A DNA stretch of 60,844 bases from IMG/VR virus record IMGVR_UViG_3300021085_000030, positions 1 through 60,844 of that record, one strand, 5' to 3'. The position numbers were made by a program, and so were the translations under genes. Source of the stretch: a virus. The notes beneath the pieces were generated by a model that was not told the DNA's origin, searched no databases, and saw only the letters and a program-made list of their open reading frames with translations. Shown piece after piece: positions 4,578-57,566 of this stretch (position 1 is the first letter of the stretch; each line of letters opens with the position of its first letter).

Positions 4578-4779
4578 AATAAGTATAGGTAGAGACTATA
4601 AGAACGACGCTATGCATTATGCGGTAGGCCAAGAAGTATATGGTGGCCACACAATATGTGACATAGTAGAAGGTGACGATAAGTTTTCTATTTATATTAA
4701 AAAAAAGAACGAAGTATTACCGTGGAAAGATTTTAATAAAAACATGGCAATAGCCGTGGAATACAATTTAGAATATTAA
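4561..4779 (+). CDS. Hypothetical protein, 72 aa
   Basis: I chose the ATG at 4561 (MSLVRKISIGRDY), preceded by a purine-rich aaagaagaag, rather than an in-frame start upstream at 4525 inside the previous gene. It overlaps the preceding stop by 17 bases and shares TAATG with the next gene, so the three are probably translationally coupled. The sequence alternates beta-like stretches (GGHTICDIVE, FSIYIKKKN). No family recognised. Confidence 0.65.
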   Translation: MSLVRKISIGRDYKNDAMHYAVGQEVYGGHTICDIVEGDDKFSIYIKKKNEVLPWKDFNKNMAIAVEYNLEY

Positions 4780-5372
4780 TGCAAAGTTTATTTGATTTTA
4801 TTATAAAACCAAAAAACGAAAGATACGATAATAAAAAATATATAGATGGTCAAGAGCTTTTAGTTAATACTGAAATCTCTGATCATCGATATGTTAGTCG
4901 TACTGGAATTGTTTTAAACGTACCTAAGTCTGAAGATAACGAAATACAAATTGGTGATGAAGTTATATTACATCACAATGTATTCAGAAGATGGTACAAT
5001 CAATACGGCGTGGAAAAAAATTCACGTGGCTATTATAAAGATGATCTTTATTTTGTTAAAGCAGATCAAATATACTTATACAAAAGAGATAACAAATGGA
5101 ACGCCCCTAAAGGCTTCTGTTTTGTTAAGCCAATCAAATCTACTGATATATTAAATAACGAGAAAGAACAAGCCCTAAGGGGCATTATAAAGCACGTTGA
5201 TAACGACATTAGCGGTTTAATAGAAAAAGAAGATTTAGTTGGGTTTACACCTAGTAGCGAATACGAATTTATTGTAGAAGGCGAAAGAATGTATAGAGTA
5301 TTAACCAATTCAATATCTATTAAATATGAACGTCAAGGAAACGAAAAAGAATATAATCCAAGCTGGACATGA
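4779..5372 (+). CDS. GroES-like double-domain protein (putative co-chaperonin)
   Basis: 197 residues that read as two Cpn10-type beta-barrels. The first (about 20-95) has TGIVLNVPKSEDNEIQIGDE, VILHHNVFRR and YYKDDLYFVKADQIYLYK; the second (about 110-185) has FCFVKPIKSTD, RGIIKHVDND, VGFTPSSEYEFIVEGE and RMYRVLTNSISIKYE. The final pattern matches the end of GroES, where the Cpn10 domain returns to its first strand. Similar proteins lie next to terminase genes in other marine phages. A role in folding capsid or terminase with a GroEL is inference. It starts in a TAATG overlap with the gene before it. A second, canonical GroES is encoded at 57553. Confidence 0.55.
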   Translation: MQSLFDFIIKPKNERYDNKKYIDGQELLVNTEISDHRYVSRTGIVLNVPKSEDNEIQIGDEVILHHNVFRRWYNQYGVEKNSRGYYKDDLYFVKADQIYLYKRDNKWNAPKGFCFVKPIKSTDILNNEKEQALRGIIKHVDNDISGLIEKEDLVGFTPSSEYEFIVEGERMYRVLTNSISIKYERQGNEKEYNPSWT

Positions 5373-40525: not shown

Positions 40526-41095
40526 TTACAATGTAGTTAATTCAATTAGTTCTTTTTTAACATCGTTTGTTAAATTATACTTGTTTTCAATCACTGCCAT
40601 TTTACCGCCTGCTTTTATATAGTCTAAAGCTTTTTGAAATTTGGGATCTTTTACGTTCTTTATTTCAGCTTTGATTGCGACTGGTTTAGCTGCTGTAACT
40701 TTGCCGTGACTGTTTGTTGCGTCACTATCTTGAGTGTCGTCTATTAGTAATAAGTTGCCAAGTGCATACTTTTTACCGTAACTCGATGCACTACCAAACT
40801 TCTGAGGTGTTTGCATACCCTTTTGATTAAGGTCTACACCAACTAAAGCTGTAGCTTCCAATTCCATACCTTTCTCATCTTGAATAACTGCTGTGCTTTC
40901 AAGTATAGGCATAGGATCACTTGAGATTAATCTTTCTTTAATCCTTACTGATACTCCTAGCTCTAATAGATAGGGTTTAATTGATTCGAGAATGTCTTCG
41001 GCTGATCTGAAGTTGTATTTGCCGAATGAGTTAAATCTACTTTTCTTCGATTTAAATTTTGTCTGAATGGTTGACAGTTTTTGGTTTAGGGTCAT
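40526..41095 (-). CDS. erf: ERF-family single-strand annealing protein
   Basis: 189 residues. FGSASSYGKKYALGNLLLI then DDTQDSDAT is the ERF signature region. The N-terminal part contains YNFRSAEDILESIKPYLLEL as in ERF. It anneals complementary single strands in recombination. Located one base upstream of its partner exonuclease gene, as in many phages. Confidence 0.82.
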   Translation of the reverse strand: MTLNQKLSTIQTKFKSKKSRFNSFGKYNFRSAEDILESIKPYLLELGVSVRIKERLISSDPMPILESTAVIQDEKGMELEATALVGVDLNQKGMQTPQKFGSASSYGKKYALGNLLLIDDTQDSDATNSHGKVTAAKPVAIKAEIKNVKDPKFQKALDYIKAGGKMAVIENKYNLTNDVKKELIELTTL

Positions 41096-41147
41096 AATAT
41101 ATTATTACATGTTTTTAATTAAACTTAAATTCGTTATTTACCGTAAC
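41096..41147 (-). other. Short intergenic gap before erf
   Basis: 52 bases without a gene between the sigma-factor stop and erf. It is AT-rich (atattattacatg, and ttaaacttaaattcg) with no clear hairpin or ACGAA/TATAAT promoter. It may hold an unlabelled promoter for erf. Confidence 0.3.
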
Positions 41148-41912
41148 CTACAGGTAATCAAGCACTTGCGAGCTGTCTACGTTGTCGATTAAGGTTTGTA
41201 TAGCATCACGTTTTATTTGTGAAATTCTTACATGAGCAGTGCTCACACTAATTCCAACTTGAGTGGCTATATCGTTTGCAGAATGCTTATCACAGTCTAA
41301 ACCGTAACTTAGCCTCAATACATTATATTGTCTTTCATCTAAATGCGTTCGCATTAAACCCAGCAAATAAGTATTTAATAAAGCTATGTTATATGGTTCG
41401 GATTTGTCTATTACTTGATAAGCTAAATTTTCATCATCATTAGGGCTAGCATCGATTGAAGAGAATACTGAATTAAAGAACATTGCAACAAGCTTTTCAT
41501 CTTTAGGATTCTTGCGTATTTCATTTAATTTATGTTCAGGTATTCTTATCTCACCTCTGTTCATATCAACGGCTCGTCTGATTGCTCCCTTAATTCGTTT
41601 AGATAAAAACGATTTAAGTGTTTTTTCTTGGTCTTCAGATTTCAATAGTAATTCTCTGTCTAGTTTATTTACTGCGGCAATTAATGCATAATTACCATCC
41701 TGTATTAAATCTAGTATAGACAGTATACCCGATGCTTGATTAGTTGTTGATTGTTTTCTCGCTATGTTTTCAACTAGCGGTAAGAAGTTTATTATTAATT
41801 CTTCATTAGTTAACTTAGTATAATCACCGTCAATTGGTTTATTAACTTCTTCAATTGCATCTTCAACTTCTTCTTTATATTTTAAATATATTGGTATGTT
41901 ATATTTTTTCAT
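41148..41912 (-). CDS. RNA polymerase sigma factor (sigma-70 family)
   Basis: 254 residues. Region 2 has NFLPLVENIARKQ and SILDLIQDGNYALIAAVNKL, then FLSKRIKGAIRRAVDMNRGE continuing IRIPEHKLNEI into a region 3-like stretch. Region 4 has DERQYNVLRLSYGLD and ANDIATQVGISVSTAHVRIS, the DNA-reading helix. It should direct host RNA polymerase to phage promoters. The seven-copy promoter at 44.8-49.7 kb is one candidate target, though early genes could instead use host sigma. ATGA overlap with the downstream-encoded HTH gene's end. Confidence 0.85.
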   Translation of the reverse strand: MKKYNIPIYLKYKEEVEDAIEEVNKPIDGDYTKLTNEELIINFLPLVENIARKQSTTNQASGILSILDLIQDGNYALIAAVNKLDRELLLKSEDQEKTLKSFLSKRIKGAIRRAVDMNRGEIRIPEHKLNEIRKNPKDEKLVAMFFNSVFSSIDASPNDDENLAYQVIDKSEPYNIALLNTYLLGLMRTHLDERQYNVLRLSYGLDCDKHSANDIATQVGISVSTAHVRISQIKRDAIQTLIDNVDSSQVLDYL

Positions 41913-42547
41913 AGTTCATTATTAAGTAGTTCTTTTTCTGTTTTCAATTGATTGCCCATATTTCTGTGTATTGTTCTTGTGGTACAACTTAATAACTTGG
42001 CTAGTTTACTTATTGTTATCTTTTGCTTTTCGTGATTGAGATCAAGCATACATTGGTATATGTCGTCTTCTGAAACTTTTTTACCTTTACCAATTAATTT
42101 ACCTACTATGCTTAGCTTCTGTGATAATGTTAAACCTGTCCCGTGTTTGAATATTACTTTACGTATTCGATTACGAGGAGGTGTATCACCGATGCCAAGC
42201 ACTTCATTAATCATATTGTCAAGTATTTTTTGTTTCATAAAGAATGTAACAAAACCGTTTTCTTTGTCTGCAATAAAATTAAATATGGACCGCATATCAT
42301 CATCAAGTGAGACATCATCTCCTTCGATGCCATCCGCATTTAAATAGTATAAAACTAAAAAATGCCACTTTAATGATTTATATGTAGTTATCTTTGCTTT
42401 ACTGCGAAATAGATTGTAGCATTGGAACGTACCTTCCGCGTAGTAATCATATAGATTAGTTGATTCGGTTGGTAGGTCTGAGATAGGGTTACGGTAATAT
42501 ATAACTTGCCTATCGTTCAGCCACTTTAAGTTTCTATCTTGTGACAT
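41909..42547 (-). CDS. HTH DNA-binding protein, 212 aa
   Basis: The C-terminal segment KITISKLAKLLSCTTRTIHR continues NMGNQLKTEK, a helix-turn-helix with clear turn. The rest is helical with no enzyme motif. It overlaps the sigma-factor gene by ATGA, so the two are probably co-expressed regulators. It could be an anti-sigma, co-regulator or replication initiator. I found no family name. Confidence 0.65.
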   Translation of the reverse strand: MSQDRNLKWLNDRQVIYYRNPISDLPTESTNLYDYYAEGTFQCYNLFRSKAKITTYKSLKWHFLVLYYLNADGIEGDDVSLDDDMRSIFNFIADKENGFVTFFMKQKILDNMINEVLGIGDTPPRNRIRKVIFKHGTGLTLSQKLSIVGKLIGKGKKVSEDDIYQCMLDLNHEKQKITISKLAKLLSCTTRTIHRNMGNQLKTEKELLNNEL

Positions 42548-42564
42548 TAGCTTATTACTAATTA

Positions 42565-42678
42565 TTATTTATTAGCTTTCGTCGCTCTTCTCGGCTTTTG
42601 AAATTTCTTTATTTTGTTTGCAATGTTAAAAACATTTGCATTTATTAAATGCTTTGCATTTTTTGTTGTTTTACTCAT
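42565..42678 (-). CDS. Small basic protein, 37 aa
   Basis: Reads MSKTTKNAKHLINANVFNIA then NKIKKFQKPRRATKANK. It starts within the last bases of the 3D-domain gene and ends just before the HTH gene. Very basic; maybe RNA or DNA binding. Coding status rests on tiling between genes. Confidence 0.5.
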   Translation of the reverse strand: MSKTTKNAKHLINANVFNIANKIKKFQKPRRATKANK

Positions 42679-44790: not shown

Positions 44791-44828
44791 TATTATTATA
44801 CATTTGCGTTCGTGTTTATTCTGTGTCG
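44791..44828 (-). promoter_or_regulatory. Early-type promoter copy 1
   Basis: On the minus strand: ACAGAATAAACACGAA, 8 bases (with CGCAAATG ending), then TATAAT at 44800-44795. Spacing ACGAA to TATAAT is 8, identical to the other six copies. Drives the gene at 44529-44786 and on to the ligase. Confidence 0.75.
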
Positions 44829-45202
44829 TTTAATTCTTTTTCAGATTCAATTTTGTCTTGTACTATTATATATTGTTCATGAAGTAAATCATCGATATAT
44901 AATTCGTCGTAAATTTCTTCATCAACAAATATATCAAGACCATCTTTAACACAACTTATAATTTCATCAACCAATCCGTTAGCATAGTAATAAACATTTT
45001 CAGGGTTGAAACCATAATCGTCGTTTGCATGAGCCCAATATACTGTGTAAGAGTCTGCAGTATATACAGATTCAAAAATATAGTCACAAGTATTAGTTCC
45101 CATATAATCGGTTGTTATTTTAGAGTTGTAATAATCTAATATCCAAGTCTTTGCTTCTTCAGGTGTGACATCGTGCATGTCTTCTTTATATATTTTTTCC
45201 AT
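44816..45202 (-). CDS. Acidic hypothetical protein, 128 aa
   Basis: Strongly acidic with aromatic residues (YYYANGLVDEIISCVKDGL; DEEIYDELYIDDLLHEQYII), possibly a DNA mimic. Its 3' end overlaps the upstream element of promoter copy 1. No family recognised. Confidence 0.6.
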   Translation of the reverse strand: MEKIYKEDMHDVTPEEAKTWILDYYNSKITTDYMGTNTCDYIFESVYTADSYTVYWAHANDDYGFNPENVYYYANGLVDEIISCVKDGLDIFVDEEIYDELYIDDLLHEQYIIVQDKIESEKELNDTE

Positions 45203-45203
45203 A

Positions 45204-45452
45204 TTAATCTAGTAATACCATATAGGCTTTAGGGTTATTTGTTCTGAACCATGACAAACCGTCTTGCCAGTTTTTAATTACAGAATCATTTAAATTTGTT
45301 GAGGGTATCATTGCACACCCCATAACAAAGTCGTACATACTTAATTCTAAGTTGTTAAGTTCGTAGCTTTCGCCAGAGAATGGATTTGTTACACTATCGC
45401 CTTGATTGTATACGGTTCCATTAAACCATTTAGGTAATTTATTTTCTTTCAT
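45204..45452 (-). CDS. Conserved phage protein, 82 aa
   Basis: LPKWFNGTVYNQGD and VTNPFSGESYELNNLELSMY with the end WFRTNNPKAYMVLLD match a family I remember as widespread in marine phages, always of unknown function. ATGA-type overlap with the next upstream gene. Confidence 0.7.
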   Translation of the reverse strand: MKENKLPKWFNGTVYNQGDSVTNPFSGESYELNNLELSMYDFVMGCAMIPSTNLNDSVIKNWQDGLSWFRTNNPKAYMVLLD

Positions 45453-45931
45453 ATTAAATTTATTTTTTGCTTCATAGGTTTTATTTCTTTATTCCACTGT
45501 GTGTAGCCTGCATTAGGTTCTGCATATTTTTCTATTATTTTATTAGGACTACCTACAAATATATTTTTATTTGAGTAGTTATCCCAACAACTTATCCAAA
45601 CATCAGGTTTACCAACCCATATAATCCATGTATACTGGTGGTCAACTGATGTGACACTAGGATATAAATATTGACTGTTGTAGTGAAAGTCGTGTGCTAA
45701 ATGGCTTGCAATTCTAGAACCATCACCAAATTGAGTGAAGCCTTCATCTTTTTGCATGTAGTTTACCCAGTTAGCTAGCTCAACACCACGCCACGAAGGA
45801 TAGCCATCATGGTGCATATACATATTTACATAGCTATCGTCTTTAACCTGTTCAGGATTAACTGCGAAGCCTGCTTCAAATTGTTTTGCTTCTGATCGAT
45901 TTACGACCATTGTTACGTTTCTAGTACTCAT
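45449..45931 (-). CDS. Conserved phage protein, 160 aa
   Basis: Contains YMHHDGYPSWRGVELANWVN, an HxDGYPxxxGxxLxxW pattern found in a family of small phage and bacterial proteins, then HQYTWIIWVGKPDVWISCWD. I do not know its biochemical role. Its stop overlaps the ATG of the 82-residue gene. Confidence 0.65.
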   Translation of the reverse strand: MSTRNVTMVVNRSEAKQFEAGFAVNPEQVKDDSYVNMYMHHDGYPSWRGVELANWVNYMQKDEGFTQFGDGSRIASHLAHDFHYNSQYLYPSVTSVDHQYTWIIWVGKPDVWISCWDNYSNKNIFVGSPNKIIEKYAEPNAGYTQWNKEIKPMKQKINLI

Positions 45932-45932
45932 A

Positions 45933-46151
45933 TTATTTAATTAGGGATGATAAGTATAACCATACTTGTTTTTGTTTGTATAAACCGCTTAAAATACTTT
46001 CATGCATTTCAACAGTGATGCCAACTTTAGATAATGTTTTGTTATCTATGTTTTCCTGACAGTCTTTAATCTCATTTTCAAGGTGGCATAAGTTTGCAAA
46101 AACTTTACAGACTGCTCGCTCTTTCGTTTCTTTAAGGTGATCAACATTCAT
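45933..46151 (-). CDS. Hypothetical protein, 72 aa
   Basis: Helical with three Cys residues (LKETKERAVCKVFANLCHLE; ESILSGLYKQKQVWLYLSSL). Shares TAATG with the gene upstream. Not recognised. Confidence 0.6.
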   Translation of the reverse strand: MNVDHLKETKERAVCKVFANLCHLENEIKDCQENIDNKTLSKVGITVEMHESILSGLYKQKQVWLYLSSLIK

Positions 46152-46378
46152 TAGTCTTTAATTATTATATTGTCGCCGTATAGCACAGAATCTACTGATC
46201 TGTCGTAGAAGTCCGCCCATGTTTGCAGTTGTCTGACGTCGTCAACAGTTAATTGATACCACGCTGTGTGGCTCATTAATCTGTATTTTAGTTGTTTAGC
46301 GGTGGCGTATTCCCTCGCATTTGCATTTAGATTTTTCTTTAATTCAGGAAATAATCTTTGGTAAAGTGATTTGCTCAT
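46151..46378 (-). CDS. Hypothetical protein, 75 aa
   Basis: Starts MSKSLYQRLFPELKKNLNAN with a basic helical N-terminus, then LTVDDVRQLQTWADFYDRSV. It is the first gene after promoter copy 2. No family recognised. Confidence 0.6.
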   Translation of the reverse strand: MSKSLYQRLFPELKKNLNANAREYATAKQLKYRLMSHTAWYQLTVDDVRQLQTWADFYDRSVDSVLYGDNIIIKD

Positions 46379-46390
46379 AGTTTATTAATT

Positions 46391-46430
46391 TATTATATTA
46401 TACAATTTAGTTCGTGTTTGTTCTGTGTTA
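46391..46430 (-). promoter_or_regulatory. Early-type promoter copy 2
   Basis: Minus strand: ACAGAACAAACACGAA, 8 bases, TATAAT at 46402-46397. Lies just before the gene starting at 46378; its upstream edge touches the stop of the 51-residue gene. Confidence 0.8.
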
Positions 46431-46583
46431 AACCATTTCTTCAATTACACCGATTAACTCGCTGATTATCAATACTATAGTTGCCGCTATTATGTTGAAA
46501 GGTATTAGCGCATACCCGCCAATTCTTACTGTACTCTTCAGAATCGACACATAAAAATGTTTCGTTGCATTTGGATATTTCAT
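46428..46583 (-). CDS. Small membrane protein, 51 aa
   Basis: Reads MKYPNATKHFYVSILKSTVR then a hydrophobic helix YALIPFNIIAATIVLIISEL and an acidic end. One transmembrane span. The ATG lies 4 bases after the tRNA-Met 3' end on the same strand, so the two share a transcript. Confidence 0.6.
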   Translation of the reverse strand: MKYPNATKHFYVSILKSTVRIGGYALIPFNIIAATIVLIISELIGVIEEMV

Positions 46584-46586
46584 TAG

Positions 46587-46658
<72 letters not shown>

Positions 46659-46663
46659 TTTAG

Positions 46664-46867
46664 TGGAAGTGGGCGGAGTCGAACCGCCGTTTGAGATGTC
46701 GTGTACCGCAATCAAGCGAACAGTCTCACTTACCATATCACTCCCATATTCAGGTGCACAGACTGGTTGATTTTTATCTGTACTTTAGTCCAGTAATACC
46801 TGATATAGCTAGCAATTCACTTATGTGTAGAAATTCATCAAACAATTATTAAGTGTAATACACTTCC
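46664..46867 (-). ncRNA. Structured RNA with pseudoknot and tRNA-like 3' end (tmRNA-like?)
   Basis: The 3' end is a T-arm GGCGG TTCGACT CCGCC, acceptor strand CACTTCC and discriminator A (46664). Two candidate acceptor partners exist: GGAAGTG at 46867-46861 (perfect) and GGGAGTG at 46745-46739 (one G-U). Between them is an H-type pseudoknot: ACTGG (46794-46790) with CCAGT (46766-46762), and ACAG (46781-46778) with CTGT (46761-46758), enclosed by TATCAGGT (46805-46798) and ACCTGAATA (46755-46747). No normal D or anticodon arm; TGAGA (46728-46724) pairs TCTCA just before the T-arm. It resembles a tmRNA-type layout, but no clear tag reading frame is found. A degenerate tRNA remains possible. Confidence 0.45.
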
Positions 46868-46950
46868 GTCTTCTTTTGGGTAATTACTTCCTAGAATTCA
46901 CATACACTTATAATTGGCTTCAAATCTACCTAATTAAGCTACTCGTCTAG
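46868..46950 (-). other. Non-coding stretch upstream of the structured RNA
   Basis: 83 bases, AT-rich, containing gtaattac and the repeats ggaagtaattac / ggaagtgtattac. The sequence GCG AAG AAA GTA GCT then AGA CGA GTA GCT TAA (46960-46931) forms a short frame A-K-K-V-A-R-R-V-A, which overlaps the zinc-ribbon gene end. It could be a tag-like frame but more likely is chance. Confidence 0.3.
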
Positions 46951-47139
46951 CTACTTTCTTCGCCAAGCTCGGTGAACGGAATCGCTCACTTCTTGACTCA
47001 CTATCTGTATTGTGTTACCTGTTTTATGTGCTATTATAGGTACATAAGAATAGGTTTGGGTTGTTGAACAAGGCATACAAGTTCTATATCCTAATTTGAT
47101 TCGTACTTCGTGTACTTTGTCGCCGCATTTACAATACAT
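46951..47139 (-). CDS. Zinc-ribbon protein, 62 aa
   Basis: Starts MYCKCGDKVHEVRIKLGYRT then CMPCS, a Cys-x-Cys and CxxC pair for one zinc, and ends with a basic tail (VHRAWRRK). A small family I recall from many marine phages; DksA-like or nucleic-acid binding by analogy only. First gene after promoter copy 3. Confidence 0.7.
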   Translation of the reverse strand: MYCKCGDKVHEVRIKLGYRTCMPCSTTQTYSYVPIIAHKTGNTIQIVSQEVSDSVHRAWRRK

Positions 47140-47160
47140 ATATTAATTTTTTATTTGTTA

Positions 47161-47200
47161 CATTTATATTATACGATTTCATTCGTATTTGTTTTGTATC
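47161..47200 (-). promoter_or_regulatory. Early-type promoter copy 3
   Basis: Minus strand: ACAAAACAAATACGAA, 8 bases, TATAAT at 47173-47168. Drives the zinc-ribbon gene and the RNA genes downstream. Embedded in the 3' end of the 42-residue gene. Confidence 0.8.
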
Positions 47201-47307
47201 CATTGTTGAATACCTGAGTTGTATCGTTCCCAATACTGTTGTTCCGCTGCAATTATCTGTGCTTGCAGTAATTTGTGGTGGCTAAACTTTCTCTTTTGTT
47301 TCTTCAT
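47179..47307 (-). CDS. Small hypothetical protein, 42 aa
   Basis: Reads MKKQKRKFSHHKLLQAQIIA then AEQQYWERYNSGIQQWIQNK. Basic start, amphipathic helix. Overlaps the upstream gene by 26 bases, and its end covers the ACGAA part of promoter copy 3. Confidence 0.5.
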   Translation of the reverse strand: MKKQKRKFSHHKLLQAQIIAAEQQYWERYNSGIQQWIQNKYE

Positions 47308-47473
47308 ATAATTTTCTTATTGCTAAGTTCATAACGTGTGAATGTATAGCGTTGTAGTTATCGCCCTCCGCTTCATACTCTGATAGTTGCCAATCAACAC
47401 TATCATACATTAATTCTTTAGTGACGTCTGCAATACCTTGTGCAATATCGTCTAATTCTTTCATTTTACTCAT
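47282..47473 (-). CDS. Small acidic protein, 63 aa
   Basis: Starts MSKMKELDDIAQGIADVTKE and is helical and acidic, ending LAIRKLYEETKEKV. ATG at 47473. No family recognised. Confidence 0.55.
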   Translation of the reverse strand: MSKMKELDDIAQGIADVTKELMYDSVDWQLSEYEAEGDNYNAIHSHVMNLAIRKLYEETKEKV

Positions 47474-47474
47474 G

Positions 47475-47588
47475 TTATATATTATTTAGTAGTTCATCTC
47501 TGTCGAAACCTTGCTCTATTGCAAACTCTAGTGATCCTTCACCAAACTTTTCTTCGAACAATCGTTCTAATTCTTCTGTATTATTCAT
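47475..47588 (-). CDS. Micro-protein, 37 aa
   Basis: Reads MNNTEELERLFEEKFGEGSL then EFAIEQGFDRDELLNNI. Very acidic. Its ATG lies within the last bases of the upstream gene, and its stop is one base before the next ATG. Confidence 0.5.
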   Translation of the reverse strand: MNNTEELERLFEEKFGEGSLEFAIEQGFDRDELLNNI

Positions 47589-47799
47589 TGTAATAAGGTT
47601 TTAAGTAGTTAGTGTTATAATTAATTGATTTTGCTACATTTTGTCTGAATTGCCACTCGTTTTTTCTGTATTCATAGCTTTGACACCATTTTTTCGTTGC
47701 AGTTACTTGTGGTATTGTACCGTATTTAGCTTCGTAGTCAAGACATTGCTGTAGTTTGGCTTGTATTAATTCAGGTTTATAGTCTTTAAATTTATTCAT
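47581..47799 (-). CDS. Hypothetical protein, 72 aa
   Basis: I use the ATG at 47799 (MNKFKDYKPELIQAKLQQCL); an earlier TTG exists but lies inside the promoter region. Basic and aromatic, with WCQSYEYRKNEWQFRQNVAK. Directly follows promoter copy 4. Confidence 0.6.
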   Translation of the reverse strand: MNKFKDYKPELIQAKLQQCLDYEAKYGTIPQVTATKKWCQSYEYRKNEWQFRQNVAKSINYNTNYLKPYYNE

Positions 47800-47800
47800 A

Positions 47801-47842
47801 TTCAATTATATTATACTTATTTGCTCGTGTTTAGTTTGTAAG
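47801..47842 (-). promoter_or_regulatory. Early-type promoter copy 4
   Basis: Minus strand: ACAAACTAAACACGAG, 8 bases, TATAAT at 47815-47810. It has ACGAG instead of ACGAA but keeps the exact spacing. Overlaps the end of the upstream gene. Confidence 0.75.
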
Positions 47843-48068
47843 TCACACCGGAGTTGTTATAGTTCCATATTGTAGTGTAACTAGGTTTTTTACGTTTACT
47901 GTAGTTGCTTTTTTGTTCAACTCGGTATCTTTTGTTACCCATACCACTGCAAGGTCCGTGTACTTTGGCCATCTCATAGTGAGAATGAGCTCGTTGTTTT
48001 CTTTTTGCTTTGGTAAATGCGAGGAGTTCTTTCATCGTCTTACATACATAGTAGGTTTTATTTGTCAT
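47817..48068 (-). CDS. Small basic protein, 83 aa
   Basis: The ATG at 48068 (MTNKTYYVCKTMKELLAFTK) is preferred over upstream TTG/ATG codons, since it leaves only an 11-base overlap with the gene before it. Lys/Arg-rich (KAKRKQRAHSHYEMAK; NYSKRKKPSY). Likely nucleic-acid binding; unproven. Ends within promoter copy 4. Confidence 0.6.
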   Translation of the reverse strand: MTNKTYYVCKTMKELLAFTKAKRKQRAHSHYEMAKVHGPCSGMGNKRYRVEQKSNYSKRKKPSYTTIWNYNNSGVTYKLNTSK

Positions 48069-48192
48069 AGTGTTCAAGTATTTCTTCGACTGCATTACTG
48101 AAGTCATGGTGATCAATTGTTTCGTCTCTTAACATTTTAGCATGGAAGTGCAGTTCATTAAGTAATTCGCGTAGTGTTTTATCTAGTATCAT
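48058..48192 (-). CDS. Micro-protein, 44 aa
   Basis: Reads MILDKTLRELLNELHFHAKM then LRDETIDHHDFSNAVEEILE. Acidic and His-rich helix. The start overlaps the previous stop as ATGA. Confidence 0.5.
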   Translation of the reverse strand: MILDKTLRELLNELHFHAKMLRDETIDHHDFSNAVEEILEHYDK

Positions 48193-48299
48193 AATGTAAA
48201 CCCTCCGTTGTTAAGTAAGTTAGTTAAGTAGATTACTGTTCCGATAAAGATTGCAAGGTTGTACTTTTGTACTGTAGTCATTTCATTATTATTTTTCAT
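48189..48299 (-). CDS. Single-span membrane micro-protein, 36 aa
   Basis: Reads MKNNNEMTTVQKYNLAIFIG then TVIYLTNLLNNGGFTL; residues 13-29 are hydrophobic. First gene after promoter copy 5. ATGA overlap with the next gene. Confidence 0.5.
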   Translation of the reverse strand: MKNNNEMTTVQKYNLAIFIGTVIYLTNLLNNGGFTL

Positions 48300-48307
48300 A
48301 TTATTAA

Positions 48308-48348
48308 TTTATTATATTATACGTTAGTGTTCGTGTTTAGTTTGTGAG
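48308..48348 (-). promoter_or_regulatory. Early-type promoter copy 5
   Basis: Minus strand: ACAAACTAAACACGAA, 8 bases, TATAAT at 48321-48316. The -10 box covers the stop codon of the 43-residue upstream gene. Confidence 0.8.
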
Positions 48349-48448
48349 TCTCGATTATACCTAGTACATCTTCTCTAGTTAGTTTATCTTCCATTTGCAT
48401 ACCTATTGCCCAAGTAAGATCGTTTCCGTAATTATCTTTATATATCAT
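48317..48448 (-). CDS. Micro-protein, 43 aa
   Basis: Reads MIYKDNYGNDLTWAIGMQME then DKLTREDVLGIIETHKLNTN. Its 3' end encodes the promoter motif (KLNTNTNV is the translated promoter), so these codons may be shaped by the promoter rather than the protein. Confidence 0.5.
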   Translation of the reverse strand: MIYKDNYGNDLTWAIGMQMEDKLTREDVLGIIETHKLNTNTNV

Positions 48449-48452
48449 ATTA

Positions 48453-48578
48453 TTATTTTTTATTTATTATATTATCTACAATTTCGTTTATTTTATCTTG
48501 TAGTTCGTCACCGTCATATTCATATTGTAGGTGTGAGTAGTCTTGTATTACTTCGTTATATATTTCTTCTCTATTCAT
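48453..48578 (-). CDS. Acidic micro-protein, 41 aa
   Basis: Reads MNREEIYNEVIQDYSHLQYE then YDGDELQDKINEIVDNIINK. Acidic, aromatic. Ends 4 bases before the next gene. Not recognised. Confidence 0.5.
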   Translation of the reverse strand: MNREEIYNEVIQDYSHLQYEYDGDELQDKINEIVDNIINKK

Positions 48579-48579
48579 T

Positions 48580-48810
48580 TTATTTAATTTTATTTAGTTT
48601 GTTTATTAATTCACTTAGTAATTCAGTGTTAGTGTACTTTAATCTTTCGTCAAACCAATCTTGATTTACTATTTCATAAGTTAGAAAGTAGTTGAATATT
48701 TCATTTTCATTTTCTATATTTTCAATAGTTCCACAGTAGTCTGGGTTTTCATTTAGGTTAGTAATTTCTTTTTGAATTACATTTTTAATTAGGGGTAAAG
48801 TTCTTAACAT
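48580..48810 (-). CDS. Hypothetical protein, 76 aa
   Basis: Starts MLRTLPLIKNVIQKEITNLN and is Asn/Glu-rich, with LTYEIVNQDWFDERLKYTNT. ATG at 48810 sits two bases before the next gene's stop. No family recognised. Confidence 0.55.
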   Translation of the reverse strand: MLRTLPLIKNVIQKEITNLNENPDYCGTIENIENENEIFNYFLTYEIVNQDWFDERLKYTNTELLSELINKLNKIK

Positions 48811-48812
48811 AT

Positions 48813-48959
48813 TTATATTTCTTTAATTGATTTTATATTATTGTTTTTGTAGTATTCTTTTACTTCTTCTATACTTTTACTTTTCATATAGTATTTAAAG
48901 TTAGTTGGAATTCCTCTTTTATCCCAAGTGTTGTTAGAAATTATTTTAAACATTTTCAT
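48813..48959 (-). CDS. Small basic protein, 48 aa
   Basis: Reads MKMFKIISNNTWDKRGIPTN then FKYYMKSKSIEEVKEYYKNN. Mixed beta-helix character. First gene after promoter copy 6. Confidence 0.55.
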   Translation of the reverse strand: MKMFKIISNNTWDKRGIPTNFKYYMKSKSIEEVKEYYKNNNIKSIKEI

Positions 48960-48977
48960 ATTACTTATTTTTTATTA

Positions 48978-49017
48978 CACTTATATTATACAATTAGATT
49001 CGTATTAGTTTAGTGAA
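48978..49017 (-). promoter_or_regulatory. Early-type promoter copy 6
   Basis: Minus strand: ACTAAACTAATACGAA, 8 bases, TATAAT at 48990-48985, followed by ATAAGTG as in copy 7. Confidence 0.78.
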
Positions 49018-49129
49018 ATTCATTATAGATTTCTAATACTTTTCTTTGTTCTTCTTTAGTTAAGTTGAAAACATTTTTGTTAGGGTAAAGTTTATTAGAG
49101 ATTCTAATTAAAGCTGAGTGATTATACAT
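49010..49129 (-). CDS. Micro-protein, 39 aa
   Basis: Reads MYNHSALIRISNKLYPNKNV then FNLTKEEQRKVLEIYNEFH. Its stop falls in the upstream end of promoter copy 6. No function recognised. Confidence 0.5.
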   Translation of the reverse strand: MYNHSALIRISNKLYPNKNVFNLTKEEQRKVLEIYNEFH

Positions 49130-49173
49130 AGTTATTATATTTAAAAGTTATTGACAACACTTTGTTATCTTAG

Positions 49174-49214
49174 TTGACACGGTGAGAATCGAACTCACAA
49201 AAACCGTTGTGTCA
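49174..49214 (-). ncRNA. tRNA-like acceptor/T-arm minihelix
   Basis: Minus strand: TGACACA, ACGGTTTTT, GTGAG TTCGATT CTCAC, CGTGTCA, A. Acceptor pairs TGACAC/GTGTCA, the T-arm is perfect, and the discriminator is A followed by CTAA as in the other two RNA genes. D and anticodon arms are missing, so it is a tRNA relic or the 3' domain of a larger RNA. Confidence 0.4.
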
Positions 49215-49269
49215 TTTACTCATTCACATTTTTATACTTATAGAAACAAGTGGAACTTAAAGTAGGTAG

Positions 49270-49298
49270 TTTGTTTACAGTTGTTAATTTGTTTACAG
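49270..49298. repeat. 11-bp direct repeat, two copies
   Basis: tttgtttacag occurs at 49270-49280 and 49288-49298, an 18-base period, in the non-coding region. It could be a protein-binding pair or alternative pairing partners in an RNA. Confidence 0.6.
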
Positions 49299-49362
49299 AT
49301 GTAACCCTTCACCTGTGTACCTGTAAAAGTGTGACATTAGGTACATAATGATTTAATAGTAG

Positions 49363-49686
49363 TTAGCTATTGTCACTGTTTTCAAGTAGTTTAATTCTTT
49401 CGATTACTACATTTCGAACATTACTTGGCATGTCAGTTGATTGAGACCAGTAACCTCTCTTTAACCAGCAAGGTAGAATGTTTAGTTTAGGTAACATTAC
49501 TTTAAGAACCTCATCGTGATTGTAGGTGATTTGTTCATGTTTGTTATTGATGAACGTGATGATTTGATTTCTACCGTACCATGACTTTCTTACAACAAAG
49601 TTATTTCGGTGAATTGGTGGGAAGATCTCAGTTAGTTGGTCAGTCGTTAGTTCGCTGATTGCATTGTTTAATTTTAATTTATTCAT
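49363..49686 (-). CDS. Hypothetical early protein, 107 aa
   Basis: Starts MNKLKLNNAISELTTDQLTE, with a middle HRNNFVVRKSWYGRNQIITF and LPCWLKRGYWSQSTDMPSNV. First gene of the leftward block, after promoter copy 7. Position suggests an immediate-early product, perhaps host take-over. No family recognised. Confidence 0.6.
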   Translation of the reverse strand: MNKLKLNNAISELTTDQLTEIFPPIHRNNFVVRKSWYGRNQIITFINNKHEQITYNHDEVLKVMLPKLNILPCWLKRGYWSQSTDMPSNVRNVVIERIKLLENSDNS

Positions 49687-49708
49687 ATCTATTATTATTT
49701 GATTGTTA

Positions 49709-49748
49709 CACTTATATTATACGAAAGTATTCGTACTTGTTTCAGGAT
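49709..49748 (-). promoter_or_regulatory. Early-type promoter copy 7
   Basis: Minus strand: TGAAACAAGTACGAA, 8 bases (TACTTTCG), TATAAT at 49721-49716. Its upstream half diverges most from the others but spacing is exact. It heads the leftward block. Confidence 0.75.
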
Positions 49749-49965
49749 ATACTACTAATGCTATACAACCTTGAAACCAAATCGATAATAATATAATCAA
49801 TATGGGGGGTGGGTAAATATAAATGACTTTTATATAAAGGTTATAGAGTATATACGGTAGTGTTACACATACACCCAATATATGTGACGTTAGCTAATAA
49901 AGTATACTAGTAGCTACCTAATGTCTCACTATTAACTTATTAGCATTGCAAGTGATAATATAGGT
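49749..49965. other. Divergent intergenic region
   Basis: 217 bases between the leftward and rightward blocks. It holds an uncommon G-run (tggggggtggg, 49803-49813), AT-rich stretches, palindromic tactagta and paired tagcta copies, and gataatat about 10 bases before the ATG at 49966, a possible rightward -10 box. A place for rightward promoters and perhaps a replication origin; unproven. Confidence 0.4.
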
Positions 49966-50196
49966 ATGGCACAAAAACTATCACCTACAGCACGCAGAGC
50001 GAAAGCAGCGAGAGATAAACGCTACGCAATGAGTGAGTGGGGTAAATATAAAAAAAGAACAGCCCAAGCTAAGAAGTGTCCTAAGGGATACGACTATGAC
50101 CACCGAACAAGTAAATGTATTAAATCTTCTAAAAATCGTGCTGGTGGAAAGAACGGTACCAAAAACGAAACAACAAGAAGGCGTTACGGCTTTTAA
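49966..50196 (+). CDS. Small basic protein, 76 aa
   Basis: Lys/Arg-rich throughout (LSPTARRAKAARDKRYAMSE; KKRTAQAKKCPKGYDYDHRT) with two Cys. First gene of the rightward block. Probably nucleic-acid binding; one of several small basic proteins in this genome. No family known to me. Confidence 0.65.
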   Translation: MAQKLSPTARRAKAARDKRYAMSEWGKYKKRTAQAKKCPKGYDYDHRTSKCIKSSKNRAGGKNGTKNETTRRRYGF

Positions 50197-55100: not shown

Positions 55101-55637
55101 GGATCAATTGGTGGTAAAATAAATTTAAAAAGATCCAACGCTGGTATTGGTATTAAAAACAATTATGGTACTGCAGCAAGCGGAACAATTGGTGTGCTAG
55201 GCTACACAAGTGCTGGTATGTTGACAAGTGGAGCGTACCATTTGGTGTTTCAAGCTGATAATGGGTTGGGTACTATTTCAAACATGCTCCTCTGTGATCT
55301 TAATGGTAATTTAAGAAATTTTAACAATTCTTACGGCAGCACTTCTGACGAAAGATTAAAAGAAAATATAATAGATGCCACCCCTAAATTAGAAGGTATT
55401 AAACAACTAAAAGTTAAAAACTTCAATTTTATAGGAAATGAACTTAAACAAATAGGGTTAATAGCGCAAGAGGTCGAACAAATATTTCCTGGTTTAGTTG
55501 AGGAAACAAAAGATCCTAGCTCAGACGGAACCGAAGGAGCTATTGCTTATAAATCTATTAAATACTCTGTATTAGTACCAATGCTTATAAAAGCAATACA
55601 AGAGTTAGAAGCTAGAGTTGCGACATTAGAAGGTTAA
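52179..55637 (+). CDS. Long repetitive tail fibre with S74 chaperone
   Basis: 1152 residues. The N-terminal adaptor (VQSYTKDASINEKDKLLGSS) is shared with the fibres at 50209 and 60619. Residues about 70-680 are tandem units of the type ITTLTNNLATANTAITQNAT, a Thr/Asn trimeric coiled coil of long period. Near 690 the segment RYGVTIDSNGALTGFQLIGS is also found in the preceding fibre. The S74 chaperone ends the protein: STSDERLKENIIDATPKLEG then LIAQEVEQIFPGLVEE. The main long fibre of the virion, by length. Confidence 0.88.
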   Translation: MARVQSYTKDASINEKDKLLGSSFISTSSGADVFETGNFTIGDLARFFANYNESEGTVYNLATFDQSISTNATNIGNNTTYSTNLAGNFGTFDANGNLVTLSEAFANQVFTTTTNADFASASYTTNLASSFGTFDANGNLTALSEAFANSVMSTTTSQDAASATALTNLTAIVNNNTASITTNATDITTVTASATSNATDITTNEGNITTVTTAAAANATDIATLTSNLATANASINQNSTSITTLDSSVTSNTTNISGNGSSIISNSNDITANATAITTLTNNLSTANTSIQQNASDVTSLTSNVTTNTTNISNNDTDITTANTGISTNATAISTLVNDLATANTAITQNASDVTTLDTSVTTNTTDITTANTNITTANTNISTNAAAITTLTNNLATTDTNVTQNATDVTTLETDVTTANTNIATNGTNIATANTNIATNASDITTLTNNLATTDTNVTQNATDVTSLTTNVTTNTSDISDNESDITTANTNIATNATAITTLTNNLATANTAITQNATNHTSLSSDVTTNETAITANGTAITTANTNIATNATNITSLTNDLTTAEADITQNATDVTSLTTTVGTNTTGLGTANTNIATNATSISTLDTAITNANTNIAANATDIVTLDTTSTNNGTNITANATAITNLSTTVGTNTTSITTNATSINGIEGRYGVTIDSNGALTGFQLIGSSTTSVFKVNADDFKIYTSGGDLNPFSVSGGVVQINGNLNVSGTAEIKGSSNTGQFIACDFKNTGSSGLSSIRVLNSSNYYGLFRLNTTVAGDIGYYGIDLVIGPATGGGEKKLVNFNGGGISMGLYGTALIFNDGFAGDYTLAGAGGIRVAGSSDGQATQAMFITVPTNQAASTPAFAIENSSSSSLFKVFKTGHVETASIQTSGNITGATLSSNGTITATGAITSNSTVKGTQFIDKNNANYYLDPASTSNLNAASLAGTFIGQNGYFGQDLAVGFSSGSIGGKINLKRSNAGIGIKNNYGTAASGTIGVLGYTSAGMLTSGAYHLVFQADNGLGTISNMLLCDLNGNLRNFNNSYGSTSDERLKENIIDATPKLEGIKQLKVKNFNFIGNELKQIGLIAQEVEQIFPGLVEETKDPSSDGTEGAIAYKSIKYSVLVPMLIKAIQELEARVATLEG

Positions 55638-55680
55638 AATACCTAACAACCACGTGATTATAGTAACATAACCAAAACCA

Positions 55681-56000: not shown

Positions 56001-57566
56001 ATGGAATATAATAACCCAAGTGAGATAGTAAAAGATTTATCCTTCGGGATAAATGCAAGAACAAAAATAATGACAGGTGTTGAAAAATTAACTCAAGCAG
56101 TTAAATCAACCCTTGGTGCTTCTGGTAAATGTGTAATTTACGAGGACGCTCTCGGAAGGCCGGTAATAACAAAAGACGGAGTAACCGTTGCGGAAAGCGT
56201 AGTCTTAATTGACCCGGTCGAAAACATGGGAGCAACCTTGATAAAGGAAGCAGCTAAAAACACAGTGAAAGAAGCAGGTGACGGTACCACTACGGCAACC
56301 GTCCTTGCTCATTCATTATTAAATTTAGCAACAAAAAAAGAAGATTTTACAAATAATATAAGAAACATAAAAAACGGTATTGAAAATGGTTTACAAAAAG
56401 TAAATCATTACTTAGATGAAGCTGCGGTTGAAGTCGAAGGTGATATGTTAGAAAATGTAAGTAGTATTAGCTGTAACAACGATAAAGAACTCGGCAAGAT
56501 AATATCGCAAGCCTATTCGAAAGTGGGTAAAGACGGCGTCGTCTTAATGGAAGAGTCTGAGACCGAAAAAACAAATGTTGAATTTGTTGAAGGCACACAG
56601 ATAGAGTGCGGACTCAAATCGCCATACTTTGTAACCGACAAGGATAAAGGAAAAGCAGAACTAGAAAAACCGTACGTAATGATAGTTTCTTCTCCAATCC
56701 CAAACATTCGTAAGATTCAGAATGTACTAGAGTTTGTTATAAAAGAAAAAAGAAGTTTGCTTATCGTAGCGACCGTAGAACAGCAGCCATTAGCAGCATT
56801 GCTAGCAAATAAAGTTAAAGGCAATATAAAAGTCAATGTAATTGATCTCCCTGGATTCGGACCTACCAAGCAAGACACAACTGAAGATCTTGCGATACTT
56901 ACCGGTGCTAAAGTCATAAACGAAGAGTTAGGTGATGATTTAGATTTAATTGGGCCTGATATATTAGGTGAAGCAATTAAAGCCGTTACAGATGATAAAA
57001 ACACTGTATTAACGATAAAAGATCAAGGTACTGTATTAAGCGAAAGAATAGAGTTAGTTGAAAGCAAAGTTAAAGATGAAAAAAATCCATTCTTTAAGAA
57101 AAGACTACAACAAAGACTAGCGATGTTAAATGGATATGTAGCTATTGTAAAAGTAGGTGCTAATTCAAAAGTAGAGTTGAAAGAAAAGAAAGATAGAGTT
57201 GAAGATGCAATATATGCAACTAAAGCAGCATTACAAGAAGGTATTGTTCCAGGAGGTGGTGTAGCTTTGCTGGATGCATCGTATAGCATAATTCCTGCGG
57301 ATGAAGGCGAATCAATTCTTCTTGAAGCAATAAAATCACCTTACGCTACAATACTTGAGAATGCAAACTTAGAATATAAAGAGTCTGGCAAATCGGGCAA
57401 AGGAATAAATGTAATCAACGGTAAAACTGTTGATATGATTAAAGAAGGTGTTATAGATCCAGTGCTAGTTACTAAAACAGCCCTGAAGAATGCAGTTAGT
57501 GTTGTTAATACTATTTTCTCTGCAGATTGTGTAATTAATAATGTTAGGATACATGAAAGCAATTAA
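56001..57566 (+). CDS. groEL: Chaperonin GroEL
   Basis: 521 residues, close to bacterial GroEL (about 545). ATP site GDGTTTATVLAHSLL, the segment GIVPGGGVALLDAS, and the apical substrate-binding VEFVEGTQIECG are all present. The usual Gly-Gly-Met tail is missing. With the GroES overlapped downstream, the phage could fold its own capsid or replication proteins without the host pair. Sequence is diverged from typical flavobacterial GroEL at the apical domain by inspection, so origin is not recent. Confidence 0.95.
   Translation: MEYNNPSEIVKDLSFGINARTKIMTGVEKLTQAVKSTLGASGKCVIYEDALGRPVITKDGVTVAESVVLIDPVENMGATLIKEAAKNTVKEAGDGTTTATVLAHSLLNLATKKEDFTNNIRNIKNGIENGLQKVNHYLDEAAVEVEGDMLENVSSISCNNDKELGKIISQAYSKVGKDGVVLMEESETEKTNVEFVEGTQIECGLKSPYFVTDKDKGKAELEKPYVMIVSSPIPNIRKIQNVLEFVIKEKRSLLIVATVEQQPLAALLANKVKGNIKVNVIDLPGFGPTKQDTTEDLAILTGAKVINEELGDDLDLIGPDILGEAIKAVTDDKNTVLTIKDQGTVLSERIELVESKVKDEKNPFFKKRLQQRLAMLNGYVAIVKVGANSKVELKEKKDRVEDAIYATKAALQEGIVPGGGVALLDASYSIIPADEGESILLEAIKSPYATILENANLEYKESGKSGKGINVINGKTVDMIKEGVIDPVLVTKTALKNAVSVVNTIFSADCVINNVRIHESN

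Follow-up and report, generated by a model that had tools for sequence, protein, structure and literature searches.

The window, a single IMG/VR record of 60,844 bases, carries a gene for an HTH protein that overlaps a gene for a sigma70-family factor, and the two probably constitute a translationally coupled control module in which the sigma factor would act on phage promoters and the HTH protein on a 45-bp operator. The genome is of the crAss-related podovirus type: its terminase is closest to that of MW202828 (62%) and next to that of the Flavobacterium Elemovirus (44%), its GroEL compares with that of Callevirus at 39%, and a crAss muzzle domain was found. Late structural genes lie on the plus strand, and small early genes together with replication genes on the minus strand, early and late being assigned from gene content only. 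The late block also encodes a phage GroEL and a GroES-like protein (56001-57566 and 4779-5372). Shine-Dalgarno-like motifs precede only 1 of 58 window genes, as expected for a phage of Bacteroidota, and 37 of the 58 have A at position -3; given these features and the relatives, two of which (among the sigma-less Elemovirus, Callevirus and MW202828) infect cultured Flavobacteriia, the host is presumably a member of the Bacteroidota. Host labels of metagenome-assembled genomes were dropped as unusable, since eight loci were labelled anything from Aliivibrio to Sphingobacteriales. ARAGORN and Rfam called a single tRNA, a tRNA-Met at 46586-46658, and a tRNA-like T-arm stretch (GTGAGAATCGAACTCAC) lies at about 49165-49215 in a long non-coding gap of the early block.

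The initial annotation described a sigma-70 type gene overlapping an HTH gene by ATGA, and this description holds: both ORFs are open, lie on the minus strand and start with ATG (Table 1). A search for relatives of the sigma factor gave 221 stretches, of which 80 loci were analysed. In 71 of these 80 loci sigma is immediately preceded by an ORF of at least 100 aa, and 70 of the 71 ORFs are homologous to the HTH protein. The upstream ORF overlaps sigma in 64 of the 71 cases (33 by 4 nt, 29 by 14 nt and 2 by 23 nt), leaving seven with a gap of 27 to 144 nt. Because the overlaps take just these three lengths and nearly all upstream ORFs are homologous, the arrangement is not due to chance. A scan that started from the DNA pointed the same way. 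The class A promoter motif described below occurs in at least 118 stretches, and when 50 of the roughly 70 distinct contigs among the matches listed were tested, 33 carried sigma and the same 33 carried the HTH gene. The other 17 gave no match to sigma, HTH, ERF or primase-helicase (the search for the latter two was run without a positive control of its own), and as ERF and primase-helicase are missing too, these contigs look like fragments lacking that region. Two sigma-positive contigs had no HTH gene by profile. The first, G051 (68.8 kb), keeps both promoter classes; the second, G053, has an operator with two mismatches, and since sigma stands close to the end of this 49.7-kb piece, the HTH gene may lie off the contig. 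Elemovirus, Callevirus and MW202828 had neither gene in a profile search. We found no description of the HTH/sigma pair or of its promoters in the open-licence literature.

Table 1. Genes and predicted regulatory sites in the window
Feature	Position	Strand	Remarks
ERF-family ssDNA annealing protein (recombinase), first gene after sigma	40526..41095	-	Pfam PF04404, E 5e-30
Class B promoter, sigma-ERF interval	41100..41130	-	TTTAAG-N17-extended -10; 77/79 loci
Phage sigma factor	41148..41912	-	254 aa, ATG start, regions 2 and 4
ATGA overlap (HTH stop / sigma start)	41909..41912	-	4-nt overlap in 33/71 relatives
Putative HTH regulator	41909..42547	-	212 aa, ATG start, C-terminal winged-HTH-like domain ~154-212
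Putative operator O1	42541..42585	.	GYGACRNNAGCT-N21-AGCTNNYGTCRC across HTH start; ATGTCAC in right arm
Weak class-A-like site under O1	42564..42582	-	ACGA-N10-ATAAT; fails weight-matrix cut-off
Class A promoter	44794..44826	-	
Class A promoter	46396..46428	-	
Class A promoter	47167..47199	-	
Class A promoter	47809..47841	-	
Class A promoter	48315..48347	-	
Class A promoter	48984..49016	-	
Putative operator O2, early block	49331..49376	.	
Class A promoter, upstream-most of early block	49715..49747	-	
Putative operator O3, directly upstream of first late promoter	49884..49927	.	
Late promoter, class-B-like	49931..49961	+	ATTAAC ... AAGTGATAATATA; ATG at 49966
First late-strand gene	49966..50196	+	76 aa
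Possible class B site before gene preceding GroEL	55635..55662	+	pattern expected ~once per 65 kb by chance

Sequence and fold searches concur that the 254-aa protein is a sigma70-family factor with regions 2 and 4. It matches PHROG_351 ('RNA polymerase sigma factor') at E 7e-20, and the Pfam models of sigma region 2 (E 1.5e-4) and region 4 (E 6.5e-5) each score just under their curated cut-offs. Among solved structures, 56 sigma sequences match at E up to 0.1 (best 2.6e-7), and region 4 also aligns to the PDB sequence of SigB. With the AlphaFold model (mean pLDDT 75), Foldseek retrieved sigmaA/sigma70 chains at E 6e-6 and probability 1.00; global TM-scores were low (at most 0.34), and the linker at residues 152-174 is modelled poorly. 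The core-binding stretch of region 2 is retained (DLIQDGN in the phage protein, DIIQEGN in RpoD), whereas K105, R106, G109 and R112, invariant in 24 sequences, stand where RpoD has WW..Q..T in region 2.3/2.4, residues that we take to have their textbook role in RpoD. With LIQ-GN kept and K, R, G and R in place of WW, Q and T, the alignment points to an intact polymerase-binding surface combined with an altered -10 specificity. The phage sigma factor would then be expected to bind host core RNAP and to direct promoter-specific initiation. With this protein tblastn gave only weak matches (25-28% identity), in 6 of 50,697 phage records.

The 212-aa protein is harder to place. Its C-terminal HTH was recognised by Pfam HTH_11 at E 1.6e-4, below the cut-off; no confident PHROG was found (best E 0.33), tblastn gave zero matches in the same 50,697 phage records, and the AlphaFold model, mostly helical and of modest confidence (mean pLDDT 70.5), had no Foldseek match at E<=0.001. 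VIA-align on this model gave a best Z of 5.4 over 44 residues, and what aligned was only the HTH parts of DNA-binding proteins, many of them from sigma factors.

The initial annotation also reported a non-standard promoter family, and we recovered seven sites of it in the window, all on the minus strand; shuffled sequence gave 0.0 on average. Family-wide, the consensus of this class A is TTACAAACTAAATACGAA-N8-[GCA]GATAATATAA on the early strand, the window variant having GTATAATATAA, and its box is a direct repeat TACAAA/TACGAA with a period of 11 bp. Across the 80 of 221 loci, 279 of 291 class A matches share the same register (N10, or N13 in the ATAATAATA register) and 276 of these 279 lie on the strand of sigma, while three pooled sets of shuffled sequence gave 47 matches over all spacings, two of them at N10. 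The weight-matrix cut-off leaves 52 of 352 class A sites below it. At the expected +1, 7 nt after GATAAT, a purine stands in 99% of the 150 class A sites without a nearby ATG, and GATAAT therefore behaves as a -10 element with a sigma-type start. In 40 of 318 sites an ATG falls exactly at the inferred start point, which would yield leaderless mRNA, and in 21 of 318 the first ATG precedes it, some of these start codons being conserved. In three loci (L008, L011 and L022) the ATG of an exonuclease follows directly after GATAAT and hence precedes the inferred start; the class A site there would either serve only downstream genes or start differently. Four others (L034, L040, L041 and L063) have a class A site between HTH and sigma, with the sigma ATG at the start point or one base after it. 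No class A match was found in the three sigma-less relatives.

The two bases before ATAAT are near-uniform within a phage and vary between phages (GG, CG, AG or GT), being CG at 9 of 9 sites in one phage and GT at 7 of 7 in another. This concerted change spans 4-10 sites per phage and is seen in the window (44794-49747) and in 48 loci. The window (GT) and its relative L003 (GG) differ at all sites, although their sigma factors are identical over the 236 residues compared and their HTH proteins are 100% identical, so the sequence of sigma or HTH does not explain these bases. A search for covariation of sigma or HTH columns with them was likewise set aside, as the top columns just mark one clade. 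We also discarded the HTH protein as the reader of the class A TACRAA box, because the HTH-negative G051 retains the box, with its upstream half altered.

Class B has the ordinary geometry of sigma70-family promoters with an unusual sequence: a -35 TTTAAR, 17 nt, an extended -10 TG-T-AATTAT and a start 7 nt further on. The sequence TTTAA[AG]T-N11-T[AG]TGTAATTATATTA lies directly after sigma and ahead of the ERF gene in 77 of 79 loci. Genome-wide there are one to three matches per record, not above the approximately 1.0 per 65 kb expected, so that class B is argued from where its sites lie. An earlier form of the search, the late motif GTRATMATA beside any ATG, gave three matches in five records and was replaced by the positional test at ERF and operators.

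The putative operator is a 45-bp inverted repeat, GYGACRNNAGCT-N20..22-AGCTNNYGTCRC, that lies across the HTH start codon, and in the window it overlaps the weak class-A-like site. It was found (at most 5 of 24 mismatches) at 68 of 72 HTH starts and in 1 of 400 random windows; because the half-site derives from HTH starts in the clade of the window, mismatches are more numerous in more distant phages. The operator was missed in four loci, L051, where the contig ends, L056, L057 and L058, and as an operator is listed near the start of the HTH ORF in L056 and L058, the start codon chosen there is probably wrong. A further 68 operators lie away from HTH starts. A class B -10 ([TCA]GT[AG]AT[TAC]ATA) stands 20-27 nt off, on the late side, in 22 of them, compared with 3 of 800 random positions having one within 70 nt; the other 46 have none within 70 nt. 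In 20 of the 22 class-B-linked cases 20-23 nt separate the end of the near arm from the conserved G of the -10, which places the operator edge at the late promoter flush with the -35 and about 37 nt ahead of the start point. The HTH-negative G051 has one operator-like match, with 4 mismatches, and matches of this quality are expected 0.7 times per 65 kb. From the position of the operator at the protein's own gene and from G051, we infer that the HTH protein binds it.

The Bacteroidota primary sigma factor reads TTTG/TANNTTTG (PMC6847099), and early regions were judged against this Bacteroidota-type consensus, the host being presumed. In the early regions of 39 sigma phages the host-type element TAHHTTTG was seen 32 times on the early strand, compared with 43.8 expected and 57 on the opposite strand. 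When the TTG element was strictly required, two matches were found, and 42 of 44 early regions had no host-type promoter outside ORFs. The sigma-less Elemovirus has six host-type TAHHTTTG elements (0.8 expected) and Callevirus two (0.8 expected). In Elemovirus, two tandem host-type promoters (TATATTTG; L114, 18360 and 18588, minus strand) head the early block. In MW202828, also without sigma, many early genes are preceded at a distance of a few bases by a perfect palindrome, GTGTCGTTAACGACAC (L113:44248-49918).

As to the lack of a phage RNA polymerase stated in the initial annotation, Pfam and PHROG gave no such enzyme among the window proteins scanned, a set that includes part of the small ORFs. 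A PF00940 search of 12 records had no match, the control genomes giving none either. No RNA polymerase similarity was found in the giant protein P0003 (21840-29291), which has 2483 aa, is of virion size and carries a HELLH motif at residue 791. The motif DFDTD in P0003, considered as a polymerase hint, was discarded, as it is not common to the giants of Elemovirus or MW202828.

The pair had been proposed as the switch that redirects host RNA polymerase between early and late classes. Two non-host promoter classes, one in the early block and the other directly behind sigma and ahead of the first late gene, with an operator that links the HTH start to the late promoter, agree with this proposal. 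Its simplest form, host sigma early and phage sigma late, fits poorly, as class A is unlike the presumed Bacteroidota promoters and there is no excess of host-type elements. In the scheme that we consider probable, for which we infer the binding partners, the early and late timing and the sign of regulation, the phage sigma factor would join host core RNAP and steer it to phage-specific promoters. Class B, at the recombination/replication operon after sigma and on the late strand, is the class most confidently assigned to it; class A, at the small early genes and in four relatives at sigma itself, would probably be read by it too. On O1 the HTH protein would repress the HTH-sigma operon, as expected of an operator that covers the HTH start codon and the adjoining upstream DNA. 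The copy at the first late promoter stops about 37 nt short of the start point, at the edge of the -35, where the HTH protein would be placed to touch sigma region 4 and activate. Coupled translation would keep the two proteins in proportion.

Reading of class A by the phage sigma factor leaves the first synthesis of that factor unexplained, as no clear host-type early promoter is seen. One alternative, which we regard as having a modest chance of being correct, is that sigma reads class B only and that class A is read at infection by host holoenzyme with an unrecognised host sigma. Class A upstream of sigma and HTH, with class B right after sigma and at the late strand, is the cascade expected from it, and phage 7-11 provides a precedent of host sigma70 early and phage sigma late (PMC8948821). 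However, the TTTG/TANNTTTG of the Bacteroidota primary sigma (PMC6847099) is missing from class A, and a host-read class A would be a promoter type not described for Bacteroidota in that paper. Class A also travels with sigma, being absent from the three sigma-less relatives. It is highly improbable that class A is the promoter of a virion-carried single-subunit phage RNAP, with sigma and HTH acting only later. The distance from AATACGA to the conserved G, which we take to equal that of the T7 promoter, the start codons that precede the sigma-type start point and a giant protein without assigned function would all suit such an enzyme, but a purine in 99% of sites 7 nt after GATAAT marks a sigma-type start, no polymerase was found by Pfam, PHROG or PDB sequence among the window proteins scanned, and relatives without class A also have giant proteins. 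The T7-like AATACGA register was set aside in view of the purine start and the polymerase not being found. Also doubtful, and in our estimation quite unlikely, is a more radical version in which host-type promoters are wholly discarded and every stage is phage-specified, with sigma (with or without HTH) either entering the cell together with the genome or arising from a hidden trace transcript, and the operator then flipping the divergent early/late block. To our knowledge, no virion-delivered sigma factor has been described; such delivery, if true, would be a new way of starting infection.

The role of the HTH protein allows other readings as well. Tight translational coupling suggests stoichiometric partners, and the DNA-binding look of the protein is confined to its C-terminal part, both of which would suit an anti-sigma factor or sigma chaperone, with another phage protein binding the operator. 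We consider this rather improbable, given that the HTH start codon lies inside an operator arm in 68 of 72 loci and that the HTH-negative G051 has no good operator. The HTH protein might also repress late promoters early in infection rather than activate them, as it is the position of the operator that is known and not its regulatory sign; yet the near arm lies upstream of the -35 in 20 of the 22 class-B-linked operators, an activator position, and the repressor-like placement is at the HTH gene, making late repression unlikely in our view.

The known phage sigma factors with mapped promoters belong mainly to phages of Escherichia, Salmonella and Bacillus. Here the pair, two promoter classes and an operator family are readable from sequence across about 100 contigs of uncultured marine phages with cultured relatives that infect Flavobacteriia. 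They likely offer an orthogonal promoter set for Bacteroidota, whose promoters are not of the TATAAT type, and the exact DNA templates for in vitro testing are now defined. They also raise the question of the source of the first transcript when no host-type early promoter is evident.

Two known systems bear comparison with the proposed module. Like the phage sigma factors phiEco32 gp36 and 7-11 gp47, which belong to the sigma70 family and redirect host core to phage promoters (PMC8948821), the factor described here would do so, and a non-host promoter class that it would recognise stands at late genes (ahead of ERF in 77 of 79 loci, and on the late side of 22 of 68 operators). The 7-11 factor has region 4 and a bipartite promoter, and the phiEco32 helper gp79 activates transcription by the phage sigma and inhibits that of host and early genes, according to the same source. 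The partner in the present phages differs from gp79 in being an HTH protein with its own operator family, and the phiEco32/7-11 promoters (GTAAtg-16-aCTA; tAATGTAtA) differ from classes A and B. Early promoters of 7-11 are ordinary sigma70 promoters in this account, whereas no clear host-type early promoter appears here and the TTTG/TANNTTTG type of host primary sigma was not found at early genes, for a host presumed to belong to Bacteroidota. In the second system, the phi29 protein p4 represses early and activates late promoters by binding inverted repeats that lie between these divergent sets (PMC3100819), and the window likewise has an inverted-repeat site between divergent early and late promoters. 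The p4 site, CTTTTT-15 bp-AAAATG, differs from the 45-bp operator, p4 has a fold of five beta strands and four helices where the HTH model, of modest confidence, is mostly helical, and p4 uses host holoenzyme whereas a phage sigma factor is encoded here in the same operon. Elemovirus, Callevirus and MW202828 are annotated relatives by terminase or GroEL, yet lack sigma and HTH. As far as tested, the module would be a member of neither system; it appears to resemble a phiEco32-type sigma factor placed in one operon with a p4-like regulator.
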